64,000 bases of DNA, taken from positions 2,232,001 through 2,296,000 of the forward strand of contig NZ_LT703001.1 in NCBI RefSeq assembly GCF_900149705.1, given 5' to 3'. Position 1 is the first letter of the stretch; each line of letters starts with the position of its first letter. Shown here in pieces: positions 1,499 to 19,136 of the stretch. The notes under the pieces are model-generated. The model did not search any database. It worked only from the letters and a program-made list of their open reading frames with translations, and was not told where the DNA came from. This stretch comes from Sphingorhabdus sp. Alg231-15. GTDB taxonomy: Bacteria > Pseudomonadota > Alphaproteobacteria > Sphingomonadales > Sphingomonadaceae. Position numbers and translations under genes: made by a program.

Positions 1499-2116
1499 TC
1501 AGCCCAATCCCACCAATATTCCCGCTTCCGGGTCCGTCAAACTTTGTTCCACGTGGAACATTTTTTGCCGTTTTGGCGACAGGCCTTTTAACTCCCTTAC
1601 CGCATTTTTGCCTTTAGGTAAGAGCCAAACCGTCTTTTCTGTGGAAAACCGGTGAGAAAGTGACAATAGTTTTTGCAACGGTGCAAATGCTCTTGCGCTG
1701 ATAACATCGACAGGATGGCTCTCGACATTCTCTAAACGGTCTCCAAAAACCAAGGCTTTTTCGGTAAGGCCCAGCTCTGTCACGACAGATTCCAGAAACG
1801 CGATCCGTCGAGATCGCGACTCAACCATCTGGACATTATAGTCACCCAATATCGCTATGATGATCCCGGGAAAGCCGGCACCAGTGCCGAGGTCCATCCA
1901 GATCTTTTCACCCTCTCCTCGCGGCGCATGCAAAAGCAGTTGCGCGCTGTCGACGACATGTCGGTCCCAGACATGGTCGGCACTGGATTTCGAAATCAGA
2001 TTCTGCCGCTGCATTTCGTCGGCCAGCAAAGCCAGAAACCCCTCCAGCCTTTCCCATGTTTCACGTGAAACATCGAAATTTGCGCGCAACCAATCCTGCG
2101 CTTCTTGCTCCGTCAT
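1499..2116 (-). CDS. rsmG: 16S rRNA (guanine-527-N7) methyltransferase RsmG (GidB)
   Basis: Rossmann-fold SAM-dependent methyltransferase that modifies G527 of 16S rRNA. The SAM-binding motif MDLGTGAGFPGI lies at about residues 74-85, and the 205-residue length is typical. It starts 7 bp after the mnmG stop and precedes parA, as in most alphaproteobacteria. Two parS palindromes sit inside the reading frame: one near the start encodes the DVSRET stretch and one near the end encodes MFHVEQ. The protein sequence at those points is therefore partly shaped by centromere function. Confidence 0.96.
   Translation of the reverse strand: MTEQEAQDWLRANFDVSRETWERLEGFLALLADEMQRQNLISKSSADHVWDRHVVDSAQLLLHAPRGEGEKIWMDLGTGAGFPGIIIAILGDYNVQMVESRSRRIAFLESVVTELGLTEKALVFGDRLENVESHPVDVISARAFAPLQKLLSLSHRFSTEKTVWLLPKGKNAVRELKGLSPKRQKMFHVEQSLTDPEAGILVGLG
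1545..1560. other. parS centromere site 1
   Basis: TGTTCCACGTGGAACA is a perfect 16-bp palindrome matching the ParB-binding parS consensus (TGTTNCACGTGAAACA family). It lies in the 3' part of rsmG, about 90 bp upstream of parA. It is the first of three clear sites spread over 2.5 kb. Confidence 0.93.
2057..2072. other. parS centromere site 2
   Basis: TGTTTCACGTGAAACA is a perfect 16-bp palindrome identical to the common parS sequence. It lies in the first 60 bp of rsmG, where it encodes the conserved VSRET stretch. Confidence 0.95.
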
Positions 2117-4057: not shown

Positions 4058-4073
4058 TGTTCCACGTGAAACA
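4058..4073. other. parS centromere site 3
   Basis: TGTTCCACGTGAAACA, an exact match to the canonical parS sequence, lies in the short gap between the end of mnmE (4076) and the chosen start of mnmG (3989). It is intergenic, unlike sites 1 and 2. Confidence 0.94.
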
Positions 4074-5796: not shown

Positions 5797-6495
5797 ATGG
5801 GTGAGATGAAGCCGATTAAGACGTTGAGCGGAGATGGAGAATTTCCTTGTTATGTTGCTGCTCCGGAAGGAATCGCAACCGCTGCGATCATTGTGATTCA
5901 GGAAATTTTCGGCGTGAATAAGGGTATCAAGGCGAAATGCGATAGCTGGGCCAAGGCCGGTTATATGGCCATTGCGCCAGACCTGTTCTGGCGAGTCAAC
6001 GAAGCTACCAATCTGGACGCCGATGTTGAGGAAGAATTTCAAGTCGCCCTCGATCTGATGGGTAAATTTGATCAGGATCAGGGCATCAGAGACATCGAAG
6101 CCGCGATTCACTTCGCTCGCGACGCTGTAATTGGCGGAAAAGTCGGCTGCGTTGGTTATTGTCTTGGTGGTAGATTGGCCTTCATGACCGCAGCGCGAAC
6201 CGATATTAATGCCTCTGTTGGTTATTATGGCGTCGGTATTGATGGACTGCTTGGCGAGAAGAACGCGATTGCGCATGAGGTGATGCTGCATATCCCGACA
6301 GCCGATGGTTTTGTGCCTGCCGATGCCCAAGCTGCGATGCACGAAGGACTGAATGATCATCCCCGAGTCACCTTGCATGACTATGCGGGGCTGGATCACG
6401 GCTTTGCTGCTGAGTTTGGTGCACGTCGCGATGAAACAGCGGCAACATTGGCAGACAGCCGGACCGCAGAATTTTTCAAGGAGTATTTGGGATGA
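5797..6495 (+). CDS. Dienelactone hydrolase family protein
   Basis: An alpha/beta hydrolase of the dienelactone hydrolase family (232 residues, close to the family's usual length). The nucleophile is Cys122 in GYCLGG. Asp170 and His201 (LDHGF) complete the triad, and Glu36 (QEIFG) matches the glutamate that activates the cysteine in characterised members. The natural substrate is not predictable, because most chromosomal members outside chloro-aromatic operons act on unknown esters or lactones. A clear AAGGAG Shine-Dalgarno precedes the ATG. It overlaps the next gene by ATGA, so the two are probably translationally coupled. Confidence 0.92.
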   Translation: MGEMKPIKTLSGDGEFPCYVAAPEGIATAAIIVIQEIFGVNKGIKAKCDSWAKAGYMAIAPDLFWRVNEATNLDADVEEEFQVALDLMGKFDQDQGIRDIEAAIHFARDAVIGGKVGCVGYCLGGRLAFMTAARTDINASVGYYGVGIDGLLGEKNAIAHEVMLHIPTADGFVPADAQAAMHEGLNDHPRVTLHDYAGLDHGFAAEFGARRDETAATLADSRTAEFFKEYLG

Positions 6496-6899
6496 GCACA
6501 CGGGATAACCTGAAAGCATGGCATGCGCGTATGGCCGACAAGAGCGAGGCCGCGCTTGGCGCGCAGCTTGCTGACGATGCGGTATTCCACTCCCCTGTTG
6601 TGCACACGCCGCAGGCTGGAAAGCCGATTGTCATGGCCTATTTGCTGGCGGCTGATAATGTTCTTGGCAATGACAGTTTCCGCTATGTGCGAGAGATAGT
6701 CGATGATGGTGCCAATATGGCCATGCTGGAATTTCAGCTCGAACTGGATGATATTCAGGTCAATGGCGTCGACATTATCAGCTGGAATGACGACGGCAAG
6801 ATTCAGGATTTCAAGGTCATGGTCCGACCCTTGCAGGCGATCAATAAAGTCTGGGATGAAATGGGTAAAATGCTGGAAAAAATGAAGAAATCAGCCTGA
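6492..6899 (+). CDS. NTF2-like (SnoaL-type) fold protein
   Basis: A 135-residue protein with the size and pattern of the NTF2/SnoaL cone fold: an N-terminal helix pair, then strands LEFQLELDDIQVNGVDIISW and IQDFKVMVRPL, and a lysine-rich C-terminal helix. This fold hosts many unrelated activities such as isomerases, lactone hydrolases and ligand sinks, so the function is open. It overlaps the dienelactone hydrolase by ATGA, suggesting that the pair acts on the same small molecule. It is convergent with terC, with 18 bp between them. Confidence 0.75.
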   Translation: MSTRDNLKAWHARMADKSEAALGAQLADDAVFHSPVVHTPQAGKPIVMAYLLAADNVLGNDSFRYVREIVDDGANMAMLEFQLELDDIQVNGVDIISWNDDGKIQDFKVMVRPLQAINKVWDEMGKMLEKMKKSA

Positions 6900-9379: not shown

Positions 9380-9823
9380 TCAGAACGGTTTTACAATCAC
9401 CAAAATCACAATCACTGCAGCGGTAATGCCAGGCACTTCGTTCACCAACCGCAGCTTTTTATCCGTCATGGTCCGTTCGCCACGCGCCAGTTTCTTTGCA
9501 TAACCCATCATCCACCCATGATAGCCGGAGAGCAGCAGGACAATAAGTAATTTCCCGTGGAACCAGCCCTGGCCAAATGCATCGATATTATAAGCGAGCA
9601 ACAGGCCCAGAACCCAGGTGATGATCAGGGATGGATTGAGGATGATTTTGCGTAATTTGCCTTCACGCTCGATCCATTTGGAATCCTCTTCGGATCCCAC
9701 CGCAGATTCCTGATGATAGACAAAAAAGCGTGGCATCATGAACAAGCCAGCCATCCAGAAGATGACAAAAATGATATGAGCGGATTTTAACCAGAGATAG
9801 AGCATGGTCAGATATTCATTCAT
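9380..9823 (-). CDS. hemJ: Protoporphyrinogen IX oxidase HemJ
   Basis: A 147-residue four-helix membrane protein of the HemJ (UPF0093) family, which oxidises protoporphyrinogen IX to protoporphyrin IX in bacteria without HemG or HemY. The signature WLKSAHIIFVIFWMAGLFM carries the conserved haem-ligand histidine in helix 1, and the FHGKLLIVLLLSGYHG segment has the conserved lysine and histidine. The ATGA overlap with hemE couples two steps of one pathway. Confidence 0.93.
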   Translation of the reverse strand: MNEYLTMLYLWLKSAHIIFVIFWMAGLFMMPRFFVYHQESAVGSEEDSKWIEREGKLRKIILNPSLIITWVLGLLLAYNIDAFGQGWFHGKLLIVLLLSGYHGWMMGYAKKLARGERTMTDKKLRLVNEVPGITAAVIVILVIVKPF

Positions 9824-10854
9824 TGCCGAACGAGTGTAAGCAGCTTTTCAACATGTTCAATGGGTGTGTCGGGCAAAATGCCGTGACCCAGGTTGAAAAT
9901 ATGCGGGCGGTCTTCAAAGACTTGAAGGATATGTTTCACCGATTTTTCCAGCGCTTCACCGCCCGCAATCAGGGCGAGAGGGTCGAGATTACCTTGCAAT
10001 GGTAAATCAGCTGGCAGGATTTCATGCGCCCAGACAGGGTCGACAGTTTCATCCAGACCAATCGCATTGGCGCCGGTTTCATTGGCATAAGCAGCAAGTT
10101 TGGCCCCGGCGCCTTTCGGAAAACCGATAATGGGCAGGTCAGGATGAACGGCCTTTAACCGCGATATGATTTGGGCATTGGGCGCGATCACCCATTTTTC
10201 AAACTGCGCAGGAGATAGCGATCCGGCCCAGCTATCGAATAGCTGCACCGCATCAACACCCGCGGCCACCTGACCGAGCAGATATGCGACGGTATTTTCG
10301 ATAATTGCATCGATCAGCTCTGAAAAAGCCGCCTCGTCCTGATAAGCATAGCGCCGGGCAACAGCCTGATCCTTGCTGCCTTGCCCATTCACCATATAGG
10401 TTGCCACGGTCCAGGGGCTGCCGGCAAAGCCCATGAAGGTCGTTTTATCGTCCAGCTGCTTTGCCACGCTTCGCACGGTGGCATAAATAGCCTCAAAATG
10501 CTCCGGAGCGGCCTCAAGAGACGATAAAGCCGCGTCGACCAACCTAGGTGCCAGCCGGGGTCCTTCACCTGTCTCAAACCAGAGTTTCTGACCCATGGCA
10601 TGAGGCACGATCAATATGTCGGAAAACAGGATTGCACCGTCAAAGCCAAAACGCTTGATTGGCTGTATCGTGACTTCAGCGGCAGCCTCGGCATCATAAC
10701 AAAGTTCAAGAAAACCGCCCTTTTGCGCGCGTAATGCACGATATTCGGGCAAATAGCGTCCTGCCTGGCGCATCAGCCAGACCGGAGTCTGAGTCTGTTT
10801 CCTGCCATGCAGAGTGTTGAGGAGCGTTTTCGGAGAGTCGGTGCCGTGAGACAT
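9820..10854 (-). CDS. hemE: Uroporphyrinogen decarboxylase
   Basis: Converts uroporphyrinogen III to coproporphyrinogen III in haem synthesis. The signature RQAGRYLPEYRALR holds the catalytic arginines, FSDILIVPHAMG carries the catalytic Asp of the active-site loop, and GHGILPDTPIEHV is the usual C-terminal signature. The 344-residue length is normal. It is the first gene to the left of the predicted replication origin. The hemE / PPSR-gene pair flanking oriC is a hallmark of alphaproteobacteria such as Caulobacter and Rickettsia. Confidence 0.97.
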   Translation of the reverse strand: MSHGTDSPKTLLNTLHGRKQTQTPVWLMRQAGRYLPEYRALRAQKGGFLELCYDAEAAAEVTIQPIKRFGFDGAILFSDILIVPHAMGQKLWFETGEGPRLAPRLVDAALSSLEAAPEHFEAIYATVRSVAKQLDDKTTFMGFAGSPWTVATYMVNGQGSKDQAVARRYAYQDEAAFSELIDAIIENTVAYLLGQVAAGVDAVQLFDSWAGSLSPAQFEKWVIAPNAQIISRLKAVHPDLPIIGFPKGAGAKLAAYANETGANAIGLDETVDPVWAHEILPADLPLQGNLDPLALIAGGEALEKSVKHILQVFEDRPHIFNLGHGILPDTPIEHVEKLLTLVRQ

Positions 10855-10870
10855 AAGAAAAGGGTCATCC

Positions 10871-10900
10871 CATATAATAATATAGTATATTTATAGAATC
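10871..10900. other. AT-rich tract, candidate DNA-unwinding element
   Basis: A run of almost pure A/T beside the hemE start, ending in a GAATC site. Its position on one flank of the DnaA-box cluster fits an origin unwinding element, although it may equally serve as the -10 region for hemE. Confidence 0.5.
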
Positions 10901-11015
10901 TTGTTGATGATGATAGAGCGTGGAAAGAGGCGGTAACGTTGCTCTACCGAGATTACAAACAGATTGACAGTCAGCTGTTAACGAAATTTTTACCGATTCC
11001 CGAATTTCATTCCCG

Positions 11016-11024
11016 TTATCCACA
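11016..11024 (+). other. DnaA box (9/9)
   Basis: TTATCCACA, an exact match to the consensus DnaA 9-mer, within the hemE-ppsR interval. Confidence 0.82.
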
Positions 11025-11057
11025 ATCTGTGGACGAAAATTGCAAAACTTGATCGCT

Positions 11058-11066
11058 TGTGGATAG
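11058..11066 (-). other. DnaA box (8/9)
   Basis: Minus-strand CTATCCACA, one mismatch from the DnaA consensus, placed between the two perfect boxes and in opposite orientation. Confidence 0.7.
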
Positions 11067-11125
11067 AAATCAGGATGATGGGGATGAAATCCGGAAGGCT
11101 AAAAATCCCGCATTCATCCCTTGCT

Positions 11126-11134
11126 TTATCCACA
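11126..11134 (+). other. DnaA box (9/9)
   Basis: TTATCCACA, a second perfect 9-mer, 22 bp before the ppsR start codon. DnaA bound here could also influence ppsR transcription. Confidence 0.8.
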
Positions 11135-11156
11135 ATGAAATCACAGGGTTGCGGGC

Positions 11157-11990
11157 ATGAACAGACTCCATTTGCACATGCTATCCGACTCCACCGGAGA
11201 GACGCTCGAGAATATCGCAAAAGCGGCGCTGGCACAATTTGATGGCGTGGAAATCATCAAGCATTTCTGGCCAATGGTGCGGTCGGAAACCCATTTGAAC
11301 CGGATTCTGGTTGAGGTGGCCAACAATCCGGGTTTGGTCATTTTTACCCTGGTGAACAGCGATATTCGCGGGCGACTGGAGCGCGAATGCCGCCATTTGG
11401 GCCTGCCGGTCGTGCCTGCGCTTGATACGGTCACCGACGCACTTTCCAACATGCTGGGTCAGGAAGCCAAAGCGCGGCCAGGTCGCCAACATATACTGGA
11501 TGCCGCCTATTTTGCCCGGGTCGAGGCGATCCAGTTCACTATCGCCCATGATGACGGTATCGGATGGGAAAACTGGGAAGAGGCGGATATTATTCTGGCC
11601 GGTGTTTCCCGCACCTCCAAAACGCCGACATCCATCTATCTCGCCAATCGTGGTTACAAGACGGCGAATATTCCGATTGTTCCGGAATCGCCGCCGCCTG
11701 ATGCGCTTTTCCATTTGAAAAACCCGCTGGTCGTAGGGCTAGTCGCTGGAGCAAGCCGGTTGGTGCAAGTGCGCCGCAATCGGCTTTTGTCTCTCAATCA
11801 GGCGCCAGAAACCGACTATGTGGATGAGGAAAAGGTGAAAGCCGAAACCCAATATGCACGCCGGATGTTCGCCGATAATGGGTGGCCGACAATCGACGTG
11901 ACGCGGCGTTCGATCGAGGAATCCGCAGCAGCAATCATCAACTTTTACAATGAGCACCACACTGAAAAACAGGACGCTGCAGATGAGTGA
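11157..11990 (+). CDS. ppsR: Pyruvate, phosphate dikinase / PEP synthase regulatory protein (PPSR, DUF299)
   Basis: Bifunctional serine/threonine kinase and pyrophosphorylase that switches PPDK or PEP synthase off and on by ADP-dependent phosphorylation. It opens with RLHLHMLSDSTGET, the usual family start, and carries the P-loop GVSRTSKTP at about 149-157. Its 277 residues are normal. It corresponds to RP001 of Rickettsia, the gene to the right of oriC. It heads a rightward chain ppsR-maf-aroE-coaE-dnaQ with overlapping or very short junctions. Confidence 0.94.
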   Translation: MNRLHLHMLSDSTGETLENIAKAALAQFDGVEIIKHFWPMVRSETHLNRILVEVANNPGLVIFTLVNSDIRGRLERECRHLGLPVVPALDTVTDALSNMLGQEAKARPGRQHILDAAYFARVEAIQFTIAHDDGIGWENWEEADIILAGVSRTSKTPTSIYLANRGYKTANIPIVPESPPPDALFHLKNPLVVGLVAGASRLVQVRRNRLLSLNQAPETDYVDEEKVKAETQYARRMFADNGWPTIDVTRRSIEESAAAIINFYNEHHTEKQDAADE

Positions 11991-12600
11991 TGCTCTGGTT
12001 GAACCGGTACTAATATTGGCATCCAAGAGCAAAGCCCGCCGCGCCATGCTGGAGGCAGCGGGTGTGAATATCGAATCTCTCGCGCCCAATGTCGATGAAG
12101 AAGCGTTGAAAGAGGGCTTGCGGGCTGATGGCGTAACGGCGCGCAACCTTGCCGATGCGTTGGCGGAAGCCAAGGCGGTTCGCTTGTCTCGCCGCATTGG
12201 TCCGGCTCTGGTTCTTGGCGGGGACCAGATACTAGCTCTCGAAGATGGCGCGATGCTCGACAAGCCAACTAATCGGCAAGAAGCCAAAGCCCATTTGCGG
12301 CTGCTCTCCGGCAAGAAACATAAATTGTTCAGCGCCGCTGTGATTGCAGATCAGGGATCACCGGTCTGGCGCCATATCGACATAGCGACTTTGACCATGC
12401 GATCATTGAGCGAAGCCTTTATCGATACCTATGTCGATGCCGAATGGGACAATATACGCCATTGTGTCGGTTGTTATGAGATTGAAGGTCGGGGAGCACA
12501 GCTTTTCTCTGATATCAAAGGAAGCCAGTTTACGATCATGGGGCTGCCATTGCTGCATTTGCTTGACTATTTGCGGGTCAGAGGTGTTATGCCGTCATGA
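11983..12600 (+). CDS. maf: Maf-family nucleoside triphosphate pyrophosphatase
   Basis: House-cleaning pyrophosphatase that hydrolyses dTTP, UTP or modified nucleotides. The substrate-binding start LILASKSKARRAMLEAAG corresponds to the family S-x-S-x-R-R motif, the catalytic aspartate is in GGDQIL, and the LSGKKH segment is conserved. I chose the ATG at 11983 (AGGA about 9 nt upstream), which overlaps the ppsR end by 8 nt. An ATG at 11950 would add 11 residues not expected for the family. Confidence 0.93.
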   Translation: MSDALVEPVLILASKSKARRAMLEAAGVNIESLAPNVDEEALKEGLRADGVTARNLADALAEAKAVRLSRRIGPALVLGGDQILALEDGAMLDKPTNRQEAKAHLRLLSGKKHKLFSAAVIADQGSPVWRHIDIATLTMRSLSEAFIDTYVDAEWDNIRHCVGCYEIEGRGAQLFSDIKGSQFTIMGLPLLHLLDYLRVRGVMPS

Positions 12601-13415
12601 CCGACAATCTCCCTTATGCTGAAGTGATTGGTGACCCGATTGCGCAAAGCAAATCGCCGATAATCCATAAATTCTGGCTCGAAAAGCTTGGTATCAAAGC
12701 GGATTATCGACTGTTCCACGTGAAACCGGACGAACTGGCAGATTATATTGCTGCGCGCCGGAAGGATCCTGATTGGCAGGGCTGCAATGTCACCATTCCT
12801 CATAAACTGGCGGTGATGGACCATGTATCCGACCCAGGCGGGGTGCGCGCGTCAATTGGGGCGATGAACACGGTCGCTCGTGCTGAGAACGGCGATCTTT
12901 TTGGTACCAATACGGATGCTGGCGGTTTTTTTGCCCCCATTGCCGATGTCCCGCTTGCCGGTCAGGACGTTGTTGTCGTCGGCGCCGGTGGAGCTGCGCA
13001 GGCGGTTTTATTTGCATTGTCACGCATTGAGGTAGGTTCGGTTACCATTATCAATCGCAATGTCCTCAAGGCTTCTGCTCTGCTCGCTCGTTTTGGGCTT
13101 AAAGGACAAGCGCTGGAGCATGGATCTGCCTTTCCGCCGGCGCGATTGTTCGTAAATGCCAGTGCGCTGGGTATGAAAGGCCAGGATGAACTTGTGGTCA
13201 ATCTGGATCACCTGCCCGATGATGTGATCGTCTATGATCTGGTTTATGCGCCTATCAAAACGAAATTGTTACAGGCAGCTTCAGCGCGCAATCTCGAAAC
13301 GATTGACGGATTGGCGATGTTGATCGGCCAAGCCGCAGTCGCCTTTGAGATATTCTTCGGCCAGTCGCCTCCGCTCGAGCATGACGACGAATTGAGAAAG
13401 CTGCTCCTCGCATGA
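12597..13415 (+). CDS. aroE: Shikimate dehydrogenase (NADP+)
   Basis: Reduces 3-dehydroshikimate to shikimate in aromatic amino-acid synthesis. Shikimate-binding SKSPIIHKFW and NVTIPHK (catalytic lysine), the NTDAGGF motif, the dinucleotide-binding GAGGAAQAV and the C-terminal GQAAVAFE are all present. The 272-residue length is normal. It overlaps maf by ATGA and coaE by ATGA. A near-perfect parS site (12712-12727) encodes the FHVKP stretch at about residues 40-44. Confidence 0.96.
   Translation: MTDNLPYAEVIGDPIAQSKSPIIHKFWLEKLGIKADYRLFHVKPDELADYIAARRKDPDWQGCNVTIPHKLAVMDHVSDPGGVRASIGAMNTVARAENGDLFGTNTDAGGFFAPIADVPLAGQDVVVVGAGGAAQAVLFALSRIEVGSVTIINRNVLKASALLARFGLKGQALEHGSAFPPARLFVNASALGMKGQDELVVNLDHLPDDVIVYDLVYAPIKTKLLQAASARNLETIDGLAMLIGQAAVAFEIFFGQSPPLEHDDELRKLLLA
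12712..12727. other. Candidate fourth parS site (15/16)
   Basis: TGTTCCACGTGAAACC differs from parS site 3 only in the last base. It lies inside aroE, about 1.6 kb on the other side of the predicted oriC. A 15/16 match is unlikely by chance in 64 kb, but whether ParB nucleates here is unproven. Confidence 0.6.
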
Positions 13416-14011
13416 CGGGTCCGATGATCATCGGGCTGACCGGATCCATTGGCATGGGCAAATCGACGGTTGCGCAGATGTTTGTGGATGACGGTGTTCC
13501 GGTTTTTGATGCTGATGCGGCCGTCCATATTTTGCAGGGTCCTGGCGGTGCGCTGGTTGGAGAAATTGAAGTTCTGTTTCCCGGTACGACCAACGAGAAA
13601 GGGGTCGATCGGCAGAAACTTGGTTCCGCTGTGCTTGGTGATCCTGATGCGTTAAAACAGCTCGAAGAGTTGATTCACCCTGCGGTCGGCGCGATGCGAA
13701 TGGAATTTCTCGCACAGAATGAGAATGTGCCGATGATTCTCTTCGACATTCCGCTTCTATTCGAAAAATCCGGTGCTGACGGGGTGGATCAGGTGATCGT
13801 CGTATCGGCAACCGAAGAGGATCAGCGCAATCGGGTTTTACGCCGTCCCGGCATGACACCGGACAAGTTTGAGAAGATTAAGTCCTTGCAAATGCCGGAT
13901 GAAGAAAAGCGCAAACGCGCCGATTTTGTGATCAATACATCTCAGCCATTGGACGAAACGCGGGTACAGGTACGAAATACTATAGAAAAATTGAAAGCAT
14001 CACTTGCGTAA
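13412..14011 (+). CDS. coaE: Dephospho-CoA kinase
   Basis: Phosphorylates dephospho-CoA, the last step of coenzyme A synthesis. It has the Walker A motif GSIGMGKST near the N-terminus, DADAAVH, the IPLLFEKSGAD segment and the RVLRRPGMT lid region. The 199-residue length is normal. Starts at 13412 (ATGA overlap with aroE) or 13424 (MIIGLTG) are both possible; the overlap favours the first. The coaE-dnaQ order after aroE is conserved in alphaproteobacteria. Confidence 0.95.
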   Translation: MTGPMIIGLTGSIGMGKSTVAQMFVDDGVPVFDADAAVHILQGPGGALVGEIEVLFPGTTNEKGVDRQKLGSAVLGDPDALKQLEELIHPAVGAMRMEFLAQNENVPMILFDIPLLFEKSGADGVDQVIVVSATEEDQRNRVLRRPGMTPDKFEKIKSLQMPDEEKRKRADFVINTSQPLDETRVQVRNTIEKLKASLA

Positions 14012-14038
14012 CCGGAATTTGAGTCCGATATTGGTCAT

Positions 14039-14737
14039 ATGCGGGAAATAATTTTCGACACAGAAACCACCGGATTCGACCCGCAAAGTGGCGACCGGAT
14101 GGTTGAAATAGGCTGTATTGAAATGATCGACCGGGTCGAAACCGGCGAGAGTTTTCACTGCTATTATAATCCGCAGCGCTCGATGCCGAAGGCGGCAGAA
14201 GAAGTCCACGGTCTTTCCGACATATTTCTGTCTGATAAAAAGCTCTTTGCCGATGGTGCCGAAGAACTTCTGGAGTTTCTCGGTGAAGCCAAGCTCGTCG
14301 CGCATAATGCGCAGTTTGACTTTAACTTCCTTAATGCTGAACTGGTGCTATGTGGCAAAAAACCGATCTCGCAATTTCGTATGGTCGATACTTTGGCCAT
14401 TGCAAAGGTTAAGCATCCCGGGGCAAAACTTTCGCTTGATGCTCTTTGCAGCCGTTACGGCATTGATCGCAGTCACCGCGTCAAACATGGTGCCTTGCTT
14501 GATGCGGAATTGCTGACACAGCTATATATCGAGTTGACTGGGGGCCGGCAGATCGGTCTCAGTTTGGCTGATGATAAGCCATCGTCTGAAACGGCAGTCC
14601 GGCAACCGGGCCAAAAGGAAGCTGCACTACGCCGGCAATTTATTGCGCCGCGCCCGCACAGTGCCAGCGCGGAAGAATTGGCAAGGCACGCGGCCTTTAT
14701 GGAAGGGATAAAAGACCCGCTCTGGGCTGATACTTGA
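14039..14737 (+). CDS. dnaQ: DNA polymerase III epsilon subunit (3'-5' proofreading exonuclease)
   Basis: DEDDh exonuclease that proofreads replication. Exo I is FDTETTG at residues 6-12, Exo II AHNAQFDFNFL, and Exo III contains HGALLDAELL. The C-terminal tail after about residue 180 is the polymerase-alpha-binding region. Its 232 residues match other alphaproteobacterial DnaQ proteins. It follows coaE by 27 bp in the same direction. Confidence 0.95.
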   Translation: MREIIFDTETTGFDPQSGDRMVEIGCIEMIDRVETGESFHCYYNPQRSMPKAAEEVHGLSDIFLSDKKLFADGAEELLEFLGEAKLVAHNAQFDFNFLNAELVLCGKKPISQFRMVDTLAIAKVKHPGAKLSLDALCSRYGIDRSHRVKHGALLDAELLTQLYIELTGGRQIGLSLADDKPSSETAVRQPGQKEAALRRQFIAPRPHSASAEELARHAAFMEGIKDPLWADT

Positions 14738-14803
14738 CGGACCAATTCAAAGGTCCAGCAGAATAACTATAAGAATATTGCGCAACCATAATGGAGAAAG
14801 AAT

Positions 14804-15376
14804 ATGGAAATTCGTGTTTCAGGACATCAGGTGGACACCGGCGATGCGCTCCAAGGCCATGTTGACGATCGAATGAATGCGATAGCCGACAAATATTTCC
14901 CAAAGGCGATTTCCGCGCAGGCAACCTTTGGCAAAGCGCCTCATAATCACTTTCAATGCGACATTGTATCGCACATTATGACGGGTCTGATGCTGAAATC
15001 TGAAGCGCGGGCGGGTGATGCCCACCAGGCCTTTGAACAAGCGGCTGACAAGATCGAAAAACAGTTGCGCCGCTATATGCGTCGGTTGAACGATCATCAT
15101 GTTCAGGCGCAATATGCTGCAAAACAAGAAGAAGCCGCTTATCGTGTTTTCGACGCGGGTGATGACGAGATTGAGGTGGAAACAAATTCCGAAGCCCCGG
15201 CCATTATCGCTGAAACCAGCACCGATATTCCGGAAGCAAGCGTCTCGGATGCGGTGATGATGATGGATTTGCGTAATACCAGCGCGCTATTATTTAAAAA
15301 TGCTGGAACTGGATCGCATAATATGGTTTACCGCCGCTCGGATGGCACTATCGGCTGGGTCGAACCGCAGAAATAG
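14804..15376 (+). CDS. hpf: Long-form ribosome hibernation promoting factor
   Basis: Binds the 30S subunit and drives 100S ribosome dimers in stationary phase. The N-terminal RaiA/S30AE domain starts MEIRVSGHQVDTGDAL and runs to about residue 105. An acidic linker follows, then the long-form C-terminal dimerisation domain (NTSALLFKNAGTGSHNMVY). Shine-Dalgarno GGAGAAAGA precedes the ATG. It is next to ptsN, as in many proteobacteria, but the usual lptB-rpoN partners are absent here. Confidence 0.95.
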   Translation: MEIRVSGHQVDTGDALQGHVDDRMNAIADKYFPKAISAQATFGKAPHNHFQCDIVSHIMTGLMLKSEARAGDAHQAFEQAADKIEKQLRRYMRRLNDHHVQAQYAAKQEEAAYRVFDAGDDEIEVETNSEAPAIIAETSTDIPEASVSDAVMMMDLRNTSALLFKNAGTGSHNMVYRRSDGTIGWVEPQK

Positions 15377-15519
15377 CGCCTTTTTCGCTTTTGAATCCCC
15401 CGAATCGTCAGATTTTTGGCGGCAAAATGATTGTGATCAGCAGCATCTGTTGAAGGCGATGAGCCCGCTAAGATGCTTTGCGTAGTAACAGTGCAGGCCC
15501 ATAGGCCTTTGAGGATAAA

Positions 15520-15987
15520 ATGGAATATTTGTCAGTTCATATTGACTCCGCAGCCGTAGCAGCCAGTGCGACCGCGATGTCCAAGCAAGAAGTTTTTGCG
15601 ACTTTAGCAAAAAAGGCAGCCCAGTCTTACGGGCTGGATGGTGATGTAGTGCTTCAGCGTCTTCAGGACCGTGAATCACTTGGATCTACGGGCTTTGGCG
15701 GATCCGTTGCGATTCCGCATGCCAGAATCAAGGAGCTGGACGAGTGTGTTGGACTTTTCATCCGTCTGGCACAGCCGATCAGTTTTGATGCACATGATGG
15801 CCAGGACGTTGATCTGGTCTTTGGTCTGCTGTCACCCGACCAGGGCAGTGCAGATCATTTGAAAGCACTGGCTGAAATCTCACGCTTCTTGCGCGATGAG
15901 GCTACTTTGACCAAATTGCGCGGTGCCGCTTCAGAGGATGCACTTTTTGTGTTGCTCACCGGACAGCAGGACCAGCGAGCGGCTTGA
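15520..15987 (+). CDS. ptsN: PTS IIA-like nitrogen-regulatory protein PtsN (EIIA-Ntr)
   Basis: Phosphoryl acceptor of the nitrogen PTS, tied to potassium, nitrogen and stringent-response control. The phosphorylated histidine is His67 in GGSVAIPHARI, and the fold pattern and 155-residue length are typical. It lies 143 bp after hpf. That gap contains only a short AGGCC/GGCCT dyad and no clear promoter. Its EI-Ntr and NPr partners are not in the window. Confidence 0.93.
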   Translation: MEYLSVHIDSAAVAASATAMSKQEVFATLAKKAAQSYGLDGDVVLQRLQDRESLGSTGFGGSVAIPHARIKELDECVGLFIRLAQPISFDAHDGQDVDLVFGLLSPDQGSADHLKALAEISRFLRDEATLTKLRGAASEDALFVLLTGQQDQRAA

Positions 15988-15989
15988 TA

Positions 15990-16463
15990 ATGGCTGGGGG
16001 GAATGATTCAGCGCCGGAACCGAATGGATCCCATGAACATTTTCAGGCCTTGGAACGGCTTTATAAGGCAGCGCCGATCAATCAGCTGTTCAAGTCCGAT
16101 CTCGAGATAACCGAGCGCGGAATTGCCCGCATCACCTTTGATGTAGATGAACGGCATTATCATGCGGCGGGTGCCGTGCATGGAACCAGTTACTTCAAAA
16201 TGCTCGATGATGCCGCATTTTATGCAGCCAATAGTCTGGTTTCCGACCGTTTCTTGTTGACCACAGCGTTTAATGTACTGTTCACCCGACCACTAAAATC
16301 CAGCACGGTAACGGCCGAAGGGCGATGGGTGAGCGGAAAAAGACGGGTTTTTGTCGCGGATTCGCGGCTTATCGACCAAGAGGGCGAGGAAATTGCCCGG
16401 GGAACCGGCACATTCATGCGATCGCACATCCCGTTAGCTTCGTTACCCGGATATAAGCAGTAG
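15990..16463 (+). CDS. PaaI-type hotdog-fold thioesterase
   Basis: A 157-residue hotdog-fold acyl-CoA thioesterase family protein. The hotdog helix region AAGAVHGTSYFKMLDDAAFYAANS carries the conserved HG (H-G-x-x-x-x-x-x-D) pattern, followed by LLTTAFNVLFTRPLKSSTVTAEG, the typical central sheet. The substrate acyl chain is not predictable. I chose the ATG at 15990, 3 nt past the ptsN stop; a TTG at 15984 is also in frame. It is co-directional with ptsN and DUF1491. Confidence 0.85.
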   Translation: MAGGNDSAPEPNGSHEHFQALERLYKAAPINQLFKSDLEITERGIARITFDVDERHYHAAGAVHGTSYFKMLDDAAFYAANSLVSDRFLLTTAFNVLFTRPLKSSTVTAEGRWVSGKRRVFVADSRLIDQEGEEIARGTGTFMRSHIPLASLPGYKQ

Positions 16464-16465
16464 AT

Positions 16466-16801
16466 ATGATCGAACCGCGCCTGTCTGCGGAAATGACCGT
16501 GCAGTCATTGCTGCGCAAAGTGAATCAGAATGGCGGTTTTGGAGCCGTCCTGCAAAAAGGAGACCGGATCTCCGGTGCGATCCTGATTTTATGTATCGAA
16601 AAGGGTAAAGATCCGCGGCTTCTGGAGAAAATGCCAAGTCTTGATGGGCCATCGACCTGGCAGGTTATATGGCCACAAAGTACTGAAAATAAACAAGAAT
16701 TAGATGGATATCTGAAGCGCCGGAGCAGTTTTGATCCCGATCTATGGTTAATTGAACTGGACATCCCGGATGCGGAACGGCTCATCGCTGAAATAACCTG
16801 A
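16466..16801 (+). CDS. DUF1491 family protein
   Basis: A 111-residue protein of the alphaproteobacterial DUF1491 family: it opens PRLSAEMTVQSLLRKVNQNGG and ends with the conserved DPDLWLIELDIPDAERLI. No catalytic residues are known and the function is unknown. It starts 3 nt after the thioesterase stop, so it is probably in one operon with ptsN and the thioesterase. Confidence 0.85.
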   Translation: MIEPRLSAEMTVQSLLRKVNQNGGFGAVLQKGDRISGAILILCIEKGKDPRLLEKMPSLDGPSTWQVIWPQSTENKQELDGYLKRRSSFDPDLWLIELDIPDAERLIAEIT

Positions 16802-16992
16802 ATTCTTGACTTTGTTGCACTGCACACTATTTCGCGACCAACTTTGAAGCAAAGGTTGTTCCGAGGGATTGTCCATTTGGGCGCGGAATAAACATGCAGA
16901 CGGAGGGAACAGGGATAAGCCGTTGGTTGGTTTTTAGGCTTATTTTCATGGATTTGATCCGTACTGGACTCGCCGCATAAAATAACAGGTTT

Positions 16993-17688
16993 ATGAGCAA
17001 AATATTTAAAGCTGCAAGCGTGCTTTCGCTTGCATTTTCTACGGCCGCCGCACTTGCAGTGACCGATGTATCATTCGCATTGGAAGCGACCGATGATACA
17101 CCAGAAACCGAGATCGTTGTTGATCCGGATATGCTGGAATCCGCCGATGAATCGGCTCCCGTAATTTTTGGCGAACAGCAGGAAGTTGTTTCGACAATTC
17201 CCGAGGACGTTATCGAAGCAGACCGGCTTGCTAACGAACAGCAAGCTGCGGCTGCCGAATATAACAATGTAAATGCCAGTTCGCTGCGCCAGCTGGTCGA
17301 CCAGCAGTCGATTGAAGGTTCATTGAGCAAGGAAATGCAATGTCTTGCCGGAACCGTCTATTTTGAATCCAAGGGTGAAACTCTTCCTGGTCAATTGGCG
17401 GTTGCGCGTGTTGTCATGGCCCGTGCGGCCTCATCGCGTTTCCCCGACAGCCTTTGTGGTGTTGTTTATCAGCGCAAACAATTTTCCTTCATTCGCAACG
17501 GAAAAATGCCGCGCATCGATAAAGGTCATCGCCATTGGCGCAACGCGGTAGCGATTGCAAAAATCGCGGTAAATGACGGTTGGAAAAGCCCTGTAGAAGG
17601 TGCCTTGTTCTTCCATGCGCGCTACGTTTCGCCCGGCTGGCGGTTGAAGCGGATGGCGACGATAGACAATCACATTTTCTATCGCTGA
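16993..17688 (+). CDS. Cell wall hydrolase, SleB type (Hydrolase_2)
   Basis: Exported peptidoglycan hydrolase, 231 residues. The N-terminal signal peptide is MSKIFKAASVLSLAFSTAAA-like with cleavage near residues 30-33, then an acidic low-complexity linker (about 35-100). The SleB/CwlJ catalytic domain follows: CLAGTVYFESKGE with the catalytic glutamate, GQLAVARVVMARA, and FSFIRNGKMP. This is the alphaproteobacterial version, used in vegetative cell-wall turnover and not in spores. A strong intrinsic terminator follows at 17723. Confidence 0.92.
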   Translation: MSKIFKAASVLSLAFSTAAALAVTDVSFALEATDDTPETEIVVDPDMLESADESAPVIFGEQQEVVSTIPEDVIEADRLANEQQAAAAEYNNVNASSLRQLVDQQSIEGSLSKEMQCLAGTVYFESKGETLPGQLAVARVVMARAASSRFPDSLCGVVYQRKQFSFIRNGKMPRIDKGHRHWRNAVAIAKIAVNDGWKSPVEGALFFHARYVSPGWRLKRMATIDNHIFYR

Positions 17689-17722
17689 TTCCGATCCGCT
17701 GAGATGGACTAATTTTGATGTG

Positions 17723-17754
17723 ATAAAGGCTCCCTTCTGGGGGCCTTTATTTTT
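17723..17754 (+). terminator. Intrinsic terminator after the cell wall hydrolase gene
   Basis: Stem ATAAAGGC-TCCC / GGGG-GCCTTTAT with one T-G wobble and a TTCT loop, followed by TTTT. It lies 35 bp past the stop codon. Confidence 0.88.
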
Positions 17755-17872
17755 CTGCTGCTGTCAGTTGTAAGATCTGGGCAAACTTTCGGAGTGCCTG
17801 GTTCATAGCCCTAAGCGACCTTCGCCAAAAGCCTGTTACTAAGATACCGGAGCACTCGCAAATCTGGCCGAA

Positions 17873-17888
17873 AAAGATAAGTATCTTT
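17873..17888. repeat. 16-bp palindrome upstream of mmcB
   Basis: AAAGATAAGTATCTTT has 7-bp arms (AAAGATA / TATCTTT) around a two-base centre and lies 5 bp before the SOS box. It could be a second operator for mmcB or part of its promoter. No regulator is assigned. Confidence 0.45.
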
Positions 17889-17893
17889 ATTTT

Positions 17894-17908
17894 GTTCTAT
17901 TTATGTTC
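17894..17908 (+). promoter_or_regulatory. LexA/SOS box (alphaproteobacterial type)
   Basis: GTTC-N7-GTTC (GTTCTATTTATGTTC), an exact match to the direct-repeat LexA operator of alphaproteobacteria, ending 12 bp before the mmcB start codon. LexA bound here would block the promoter or early elongation of mmcB. Confidence 0.78.
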
Positions 17909-17920
17909 TAGGCATTTGTA

Positions 17921-18463
17921 ATGATGATAGAACATAGCGATTCGCCCTTATCCGCTGTCCCCCTGGCTCCCAAACCGGATTCGATCGAGGACCATCAGCC
18001 CCCCCTGACCGGAGCAGCAGCGGTCGCGCGCGGCGTTGCACGCTTATTTTCGCGCCACGATATCATGGTCCTTTCCGAGGTTAGCCTGCCCAATAAACGG
18101 CGCGCAGATCTGATGGGTGTCGATGCCAAAGGACAGATTGTGATTGTCGAAATCAAGGTCGCACGCGGTGATTTGCTGGGTGATAACAAGTGGACCGAAT
18201 ATCTTGATTATTGCGACCGCTTCTACTGGGCCTTACCGAATGATTTTGATGCATCGCCGCTTGACCGGCCAGACTTCATGCCTGAACGCGCCGGATTGAT
18301 CGTTGCGGATGCTTATGACGCGGAAATGGTCCGCTCTGCCGCCACTCATGCACTGGCTCCTGCACGGCGAAAAACTGAAACAATGCGGCTGGCGCGTCGC
18401 TCGATGCAACGGCTATCGGTGGTTCATGGCTGGATCGATCCGGAGGCCCGGGAATATTACTGA
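17921..18463 (+). CDS. mmcB: MmcB family DNA repair protein
   Basis: A 180-residue predicted nuclease-fold protein of the MmcB family. It has the PD-(D/E)XK-like pattern RADLMGVDAKGQIVIVEIK, where Asp and Glu-x-Lys would be catalytic, followed by the signature DNKWTEYLDYCDRFYWALP and GLIVADAYDAEMVR. In Caulobacter, mmcB is a DNA-damage-induced repair gene reported to respond outside the SOS system. Here a textbook SOS box sits just upstream. The start at 17921 has a second ATG at 17924 and no strong Shine-Dalgarno. Confidence 0.9.
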   Translation: MMIEHSDSPLSAVPLAPKPDSIEDHQPPLTGAAAVARGVARLFSRHDIMVLSEVSLPNKRRADLMGVDAKGQIVIVEIKVARGDLLGDNKWTEYLDYCDRFYWALPNDFDASPLDRPDFMPERAGLIVADAYDAEMVRSAATHALAPARRKTETMRLARRSMQRLSVVHGWIDPEAREYY

Positions 18464-18479: not shown

Positions 18480-19136
18480 TTAACCCTCGGGACCAAAAAA
18501 GCGGCCGCTGGATTCGGGTTTTTTCTGGCTATCCGCTTTTTCAATTTCACTCAGAATGGAAGCGGCCCGACGATCACGAGTCGCATAGTCGCGAGCGGAA
18601 AGCCCCGCCAGCGTATCGGCCCGGTCCGGATTCGCACCATTTTTCAGCAACAAGCGAGTCATTTCGGAGTCACGCAACTGCACTGCCCTGATCAGGGCGG
18701 TTTCGCCGCGATTATTAGTCTGGTTTACATTCGCTTTCTTAGCCAGCAATATCCTGGCACCTTCGACAAACCGCAATTGTGTAGCAAGCATTAGCGGCGT
18801 TGTGCCTTGCTTGTCGCGCAGATTGGGATTCGCACCCTTTTGCAACAAAAAATTTGTCCAGGTCGCATCGCGCCGGGCAACAACGATATGCAAAGCGGTC
18901 TCGCCGCTGGTCACGTCTCTGGTATTGACGATCACGGTGCCAGGCTGATTGAGGAACTTGGTCGCCTCTGTTCCATCACGGTCTTTCACTGCTTTCAGGA
19001 AATTATAGCTGCTGGAAAACTGGGCGCTGGCTATGCCTGGAATGCTTAGCGAAAAAACCGCCAGAAGCGCCGCAAAAAAACGGATGACGCTGCTCTTTCT
19101 ATTGACCCGTGGAATTGGAAGCCTGCCCCAAAGCAT
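18480..19136 (-). CDS. Exported ankyrin-repeat protein
   Basis: A 218-residue protein with a signal peptide (hydrophobic VIRFFAALLAVFSLSIPGIA, cleavage after ASA near residue 38) and four ankyrin repeats: GETALHIVVARRDATWTNFL, GTTPLMLATQLRFVEGARIL, GETALIRAVQLRDSEMTRLL and a final LSARDYA unit. It ends in a Ser/Lys/Gly-rich tail. The likely role is periplasmic protein-protein binding; the partner is unknown. It is convergent with mmcB (16 bp apart) and divergent from the SCO1 gene. Confidence 0.85.
   Translation of the reverse strand: MLWGRLPIPRVNRKSSVIRFFAALLAVFSLSIPGIASAQFSSSYNFLKAVKDRDGTEATKFLNQPGTVIVNTRDVTSGETALHIVVARRDATWTNFLLQKGANPNLRDKQGTTPLMLATQLRFVEGARILLAKKANVNQTNNRGETALIRAVQLRDSEMTRLLLKNGANPDRADTLAGLSARDYATRDRRAASILSEIEKADSQKKPESSGRFFGPEG

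Follow-up and report, generated by a model that had tools for sequence, protein, structure and literature searches.

A probable chromosome origin between hemE and a PPSR gene in a Parasphingorhabdus/Sphingorhabdus-like bacterium, with a candidate variant of the DnaA-trio

The hemE-PPSR interval and its DnaA boxes

The window analysed here is a single stretch of 64,000 nucleotides (C1:2232001-2296000) from a genome whose 2 contigs total 3,622,901 bp, contig C1 accounting for 3,616,401 bp of this; among the best 80 of 195 encoding loci, the closest named relatives are Sphingorhabdus and Parasphingorhabdus. Within the window, hemE and a gene for a regulator of pyruvate,phosphate dikinase/PEP synthase (PPSR), judged by position and name to be of the RP001/COG1806 type, are transcribed away from one another and enclose a gap of 302 bp (10855-11156; Table 1). 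This is the divergent hemE/PPSR gap that characterises the hemE-type oriC of Alphaproteobacteria. To the left, the minus strand carries parA-like, rsmG, mnmG, mnmE, terC, rho, a UPF0093 gene and hemE, and the two plus-strand exceptions among the genes named (5797-6899) code for a dienelactone hydrolase and a SnoaL-like protein. To the right, taking open reading frames as genes, PPSR, maf, aroE, coaE, dnaQ and others form a plus-strand block from 11157 to 18463, after which an ankyrin-repeat gene at 18480 lies on the minus strand. The strand switch described in the original prediction is therefore real, with two genes as exceptions on its left side. The final rightward gene ahead of the next strand switch (17921-18463) has a DNA repair MmcB-like domain.

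Table 1. Features in and around the hemE-PPSR interval, with positions counted from the first letter of the window.
Feature	Position	Strand	Basis or remark
parS-like palindrome	1545-1560		2 mismatches
parS-like palindrome	2057-2072		perfect
parS-like palindrome	4058-4073		1 mismatch
hemE, uroporphyrinogen decarboxylase	9820-10854	-	TIGR01464 above its cut-off
AT-rich tract, probable duplex unwinding element	10873-10900		25/28 A/T; relatives AT-rich at the same place
Triplet array TTG TTG ATG ATG, candidate DnaA-trio-like variant	10901-10912	+	class-wide strand-specific enrichment
Degenerate DnaA box 1, CGTGGAAAG	10919-10927	-	3 mismatches; 0-2 in several relatives
Degenerate DnaA box 2, TTACAAACA	10953-10961	+	3 mismatches; 34 bp from box 1; TTATCCACA in L072
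Conserved block AACANNTTGAC, possible IHF-type site	10958-10968	+	74/81 intervals (best 80 of 195 plus the window)
CtrA-like site TTAA-N7-TTTA	10978-10992	+	one mismatch
Perfect DnaA box TTATCCACA	11016-11024	+	pattern match
DnaA box, 2 mismatches	11028-11036	-	forms an inverted pair with the box at 11016 (12 bp apart), which recurs in relatives
DnaA box, 1 mismatch (8/9)	11058-11066	-	pattern match
Conserved block TTCATCCCTTGCTTTATCC	11113-11131	+	near-invariant in 25 aligned close intervals
Perfect DnaA box TTATCCACA	11126-11134	+	pattern match
PPSR gene (pyruvate,phosphate dikinase/PEP synthase regulator)	11157-11990	+	NF003742 above its cut-off
parS-like palindrome	12712-12727		2 mismatches

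The two perfect DnaA boxes, the 8/9 box on the other strand, the flanking AT-rich tract and the one possible CtrA-like site named in the original prediction were all recovered. Its description of the interval as having few boxes stands for the strong ones, but degenerate sites whose positions are conserved raise the count. The two degenerate boxes at 10919 and 10953, the inverted partner at 11028 and the triplet array at 10901-10912 are additions to it.

Lone sites with one mismatch to the DnaA box are common and the cluster is uncommon. The window holds 17 matches with 0-1 mismatch (shuffle mean 10.5, with 3 of 100 shuffles reaching 17), and among the 75 such sites in the surrounding 400 kb it is only here that three fall within 302 bp. 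Genome-wide, 20 perfect boxes were found, against 15 matches to a reversed control pattern; the perfect pair in the interval, 110 bp apart, is the only close pair in the genome, the next-closest two lying 6.6 kb apart, and by our own arithmetic the chance of so close a pair among 20 random sites is about 1%. The interval thus combines a DnaA-box cluster beyond chance with an AT-rich unwinding region, as is expected of a hemE-type oriC. A cluster of boxes alone would look the same if this were a datA-like site that titrates DnaA near the origin instead of the origin itself. We nevertheless give titration the slimmest chance of the readings weighed here: a site that titrates DnaA would not be expected to have its AT-rich tract, array and boxes arranged as a directional module, the 400 kb contain no better cluster, and the mapped origin of Caulobacter has the same flanking genes (PMC1914354).

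An Rfam scan of the window returned no family at the gathering threshold. The inverted boxes fold as RNA somewhat better than shuffled sequences do (z -2.6, with 1 of 200 shuffles equally good); as inverted repeats tend to fold in this way, we take this as no sign of an RNA.

Conservation of the gap and its place on the chromosome

The original prediction had proposed a comparison across Sphingomonadales, in which loss of the interval from close relatives would count against an origin. No such loss was seen: the divergent hemE/PPSR gap is kept in 80/80 of the close sample (the best 80 of 195 encoding loci, giving 81 intervals with the window) and measures 300-315 bp in the closest 22 of these loci, and the same arrangement was found in 29/29 further family loci and in 40/40 stretches from other families of the order. 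Across the 81 intervals, boxes with 0-1 mismatch number 2.89 per interval, about 40 times the density in flanking DNA (115 in 502,719 bp, or 0.069 per 302 bp, in controls drawn solely from the 80 family loci). A single such box is present in 7/81 of these intervals, and none in 3/29 of the further family loci and in 3/26 intervals from other orders.

For the wider counts, the 113 order-level genomes with PPSR were represented by 30 family loci (window included) and 40 stretches from other families. At the level of the class, 62 genomes outside the window's family have PPSR, and the best-matching 28 of these were read, 26 with hemE adjoining; the 32/96 class genomes with no PPSR match are outside this sample. 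Similar intervals were thinned before counting, from 115 to 64 in the family, a set that is still rich in Sphingopyxis relatives and so not independent, and from 43 to 41 outside it. One locus filed as a Brevundimonas metagenome bin (L109) has a sphingomonad-like hemE/PPSR gap with a PPSR 76% identical, and may be a mislabelled bin.

PPSR is present in 113/118 of the genomes sampled across the order, and the 5 that lack it (G085, G088, G092 and G098, loci L191-L194, together with G021, locus L197) include all 4 sampled from one genus of the same family. In the four genomes of this genus, hemE is followed by an open reading frame judged by eye to be maf-like, and the 480 nt beyond hemE contain 2, 1, 1 and 1 boxes. 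The retention of boxes after loss of the flanking PPSR points to selection on the gap itself.

An alignment of close and distant intervals revealed that conservation is not confined to the strong boxes. Adjoining the AT-rich tract there is a box on the minus strand and then, 34 bp on, one on the plus strand, a pair that is degenerate in the window and perfect in the relative L072. In the 41 thinned intervals from outside the family, minus/plus pairs with at most 2 mismatches occur at offsets of 13, 22, 25 and 34 bp in 18, 13, 9 and 9 intervals, respectively, where about 0.02 would be expected per offset in shuffles that preserve single-base composition only. In the family itself, most of these boxes are degenerate, and the offset of 34, although still the commonest, is found at this stringency in only 4/64 intervals. 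These offsets would fit an arrangement in which two minus-strand boxes 9 bp apart face two plus-strand boxes 12 bp apart, with the window's family keeping the outer pair. The inverted pair of boxes 12 bp apart likewise recurs in mid-interval in relatives.

Other conserved elements are more restricted in their distribution. The block AACANNTTGAC was found 0 times in 502,719 bp of flanks and in 1/1,620 shuffles; it is limited to some genera, since it is exact in 17/30 wider-family loci (window included) and in 0/20 of the first stretches from other families. By its letters, which in the window differ at two positions from an IHF consensus, it may be an IHF-type site, and the genome holds three HU/IHF-family genes. 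A sigma-70 reading of the TTGAC within this block was rejected, as no conserved -10 element could be seen by eye. The CtrA-like site is limited to one clade: 20/23 of the closest intervals (window included; best 80 of 195) have it in the same position, with 0-1 mismatch. The block TTCATCCCTTGCTTTATCC is recognisable in L072 and L073 and is not explained by the DnaA box alone or by an obvious promoter.

The position of the interval on the chromosome was then assessed by cumulative GC skew, using 40 samples of 20 kb each, which together make up 800 kb. A broad minimum, extending between about 2.16 and 2.43 Mb, covers the interval, which lies at 2.243 Mb. In a two-segment fit, the lower switch falls best at 2.52 Mb, and 2.34 and 2.25 Mb fit slightly less well. 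When 2.10-2.50 Mb was scanned continuously, the lowest point was at 2,298,301, which is 55 kb rightward of the interval and only slightly deeper (-1760, compared with -1682 at the interval). Thus the skew agrees with an origin here without pinning it; the skew test proposed in the original prediction leaves the interval inside the broad minimum. At the other extreme, the sampled skew peaks after the 450-kb sample, and a scan of 380-580 kb has its maximum at 471,927. A dif-like site (G000:C1:477625-477652) lies 6 kb from this maximum and matches the E. coli dif at 21/28 positions, where the next best site in the same 200 kb scores 18 and the best chance site in 40 samples scores 20. A separate uniqueness check was built on the letters of the site itself. 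A first dif pattern had given no match with up to 3 mismatches. Assuming a circular contig, the distance from the interval to this site is, by our own arithmetic, 48.8% of the contig in one direction. In addition, parS-like sequences with at most 2 mismatches occur at five places, compared with two for the reversed control pattern. Four of the five are within 10 kb of the interval, and the remaining one, with 2 mismatches, is 83 kb distant. The four palindromes near the interval lie inside or at the edges of rsmG, mnmG and aroE, to the left as well as to the right of the origin.

Genes can be regulated through DnaA boxes, and the interval does sit between divergent genes. It might be only the divergent promoter and leader region of these two genes, in which case DnaA would control transcription at this site and replication would start elsewhere, for example near dnaA. 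Against this, boxes persist where PPSR has been lost; furthermore, the skew falls steadily, with no turn, through dnaA, which lies at 1.87 Mb, 374 kb from the interval, and the parS-like sites are at the interval and not at dnaA. We regard this promoter-only explanation as very improbable. Because of the box pair and cluster, the parS-like sites, the skew, the dif-like site, the conservation of the gap, the box offsets, the array described below and the published location of origins beside hemE, we assign 10855-11156 as the chromosome oriC of this Parasphingorhabdus/Sphingorhabdus-like bacterium with a probability of about 0.92. The proposal of an oriC between hemE and ppsR thereby gains in silico support from the box cluster, the parS-like sites, the skew and conservation.

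A triplet array and the DnaA residues that may read it

Between the AT-rich tract and the first minus-strand box, the window has an array of four triplets that end in G (Table 1). Its interest lies in its bearing on the basal-unwinding model, which depends on an essential Asn that holds a middle adenine. AT-rich DNA, triplets and box follow one another here in the geometry and orientation described for known systems (PMC8287927, PMC10316083). The counterpart array in genome G009 reads TTG TAG TTG TTG TTG. Since two of its four triplets begin with A, the window array matches only the looser pattern (A or T)(A/T)G, which forms runs of at least 4 in 9/64 family and 14/41 other-family intervals, compared with 0.1-0.2 in shuffles.

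Runs of at least 3 TNG triplets were found in the first 200 nt of 27/64 family, 28/41 other-family and 15/26 other-order intervals. Shuffles that keep dinucleotides gave means of 2.1, 1.0 and 1.4 for the same three sets (largest values 5, 4 and 5), and the opposite strand gave 1, 1 and 0. Likewise, a run of at least 3 T(A/T/G)G triplets is present in 49/81 close intervals (best 80 of 195 plus the window), compared with 0.006 per 200 nt in the flanks. Some of the shorter loci had their flank cut left unadjusted, and the only possible effect of this is a higher flank count. Summed over all TNG runs, the middle base is T in 93 cases, G in 94, A in 68 and C in 3; A accounts for 6/89 in the family, 44/111 in other families, where it is the commonest, and 18/58 in other orders.

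The published search rule for BUS elements asks for at least 3 triplets with a middle A, adjoining a box with at most 2 mismatches (PMC8287927). The window array falls outside this rule, its nearest box having 3 mismatches, one too many; one formal match to the rule exists at another place in the interval, next to a 2-mismatch site near 11079, and we ascribe it to chance. Across the 81 intervals (best 80 of 195 plus the window), 49% pass the rule with its box, compared with 15% of shuffles, a difference that may reflect the excess of boxes. Bare NAN runs in the class intervals are at about the level of shuffles.

We then considered the protein side of this interaction. The B. subtilis initiator holds the trio's G through Arg202 and Glu228, and uses Asn187 and Glu183 to hold the middle A; changing the middle A to T or G slows opening, whereas a change to C works, and the authors state that no such residue is universally conserved, their properties being generally maintained (PMC10721633). 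When the DnaA of the window strain was aligned with B. subtilis chain 8btg, gap-free over residues 183-228, Asn187 was found to be replaced by Ile and Arg202 by Lys, with Glu183 and Glu228 kept. In 88 further alphaproteobacterial DnaAs (58 + 30, chosen because the intervals of their genomes were already in hand), position 187 is Y in 38, F in 21, V in 13, L in 7, H in 3, M in 3, N in 2 and I in 1, so that 86/88 depart from the Asn of the DnaA-trio system, while E183, K202 and E228 are invariant in 88/88. Judged by residue type, the change from Arg202 to Lys would be chemically similar. Where Asn187 is gone and the Glu228 pocket remains, relaxation affects the letter that Asn187 reads; the letter that the pocket reads is unchanged. 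Because only 2/88 DnaAs retain Asn, a within-class test of Asn187 against the middle base is precluded; one of these two genomes has TTG AAG AAG and the other TTG TTG GAG. The link between DNA letter and residue would thus be a class-level correlation, possibly reflecting one historical change.

How these elements might act together is suggested by the anatomy, conservation, strand specificity and genome context, which are observed directly. DnaA would bind the strong boxes at 11016, 11058 and 11126, as well as the weaker box at 11028 and the degenerate pair at 10919/10953, whose spacing of 34 bp is about three helical turns. An oligomer of DnaA would spread from the box closest to the AT-rich tract onto the plus strand, where it would read the array at 10901-10912, one triplet per protomer, and open the AT-rich tract. 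At somewhat below even odds, the array may be a working variant of the DnaA-trio in which the middle base need not be A. More tentatively still, there may be a class-specific opening code, 5'-T(T/G/A)G-3', with a middle base that is free except for C, in which a DnaA that has exchanged the Asn187 contact for Tyr, Phe or an aliphatic residue keeps its guanine pocket, element and reader having changed together. Were such a code to operate, opening would rest on the captured G and the flanking T, and not on a middle A.

Alternatively, the interval may be oriC and the array part of the hemE leader, or an effect of strand composition, that DnaA does not read. The array is rich in G and T and lies about 30-120 nt from the start of hemE in the samples, and its assignment comes from sequence. 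We put this explanation at a little short of an even chance. As against this, neither the dinucleotide-keeping shuffles nor the opposite strand yield the array, and in-frame stops separate it from hemE, which excludes a longer hemE. Furthermore, L251, a locus in which hemE and PPSR are not neighbours, still has TGG TAG TTG following AT-rich DNA; L254 retains a weak trace only.

Comparison with known origins

An origin beside hemE has been published for both Caulobacter and Rickettsia, as the original prediction had noted in placing their oriC in the same hemE/RP001 interval (PMC1914354). The Cori of Caulobacter crescentus shares with this interval its hemE/COG1806 (RP001) flanks, DnaA boxes, an AT-rich region and a CtrA-type site, but has five CtrA sites in 404 bp, compared with one imperfect CtrA-like site in 302 bp here (PMC1914354). 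Closer to the window strain, a hemE-side origin has been reported for Sphingopyxis and for most Sphingomonadaceae in DoriC, and the oriC of Sphingopyxis granuli TFA has the same hemE location, and also shares DnaA boxes, a putative DUE and a gene order that is conserved; neither the degenerate 34-bp pair nor the triplet array is mentioned in the available portions of that paper (PMC4741004).

For the array, the B. subtilis BUS offers the same order and strand of AT-rich DNA, triplets, spacer and DnaA box, and most of its triplets end in G (PMC8287927, PMC10721633); it differs in that its middle A is read by Asn187, whereas the arrays described here have T, G or A in the middle, and 86 of the 88 DnaAs have another residue in place of Asn187. 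In Thermotoga maritima, the eTrio likewise places G-ending triplets between AT-rich DNA and boxes, and these triplets are required for unwinding and single-stranded DNA binding (PMC10316083); unlike the array here, it consists of three TAG triplets with a middle A, and in our alignment its DnaA has Asn at the 187 position, with Gln in that of A. aeolicus. Deviant trios with no middle adenine were foreseen as possible by the BUS authors (PMC8287927), and the open-licence literature on the DnaA-trio with Alphaproteobacteria, Caulobacter or Asn187, in the portions available, holds no statement of an alphaproteobacterial variant. As DNA letter and amino acid depart together across the sampled Alphaproteobacteria, a direct test of single-strand reading by DnaA becomes possible, and the variant could aid origin prediction in this class. 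In comparison with these systems, the origin call confirms a published pattern of location, and what appears to be new is the candidate array variant with its match to DnaA, together with the degenerate 34-bp pair.
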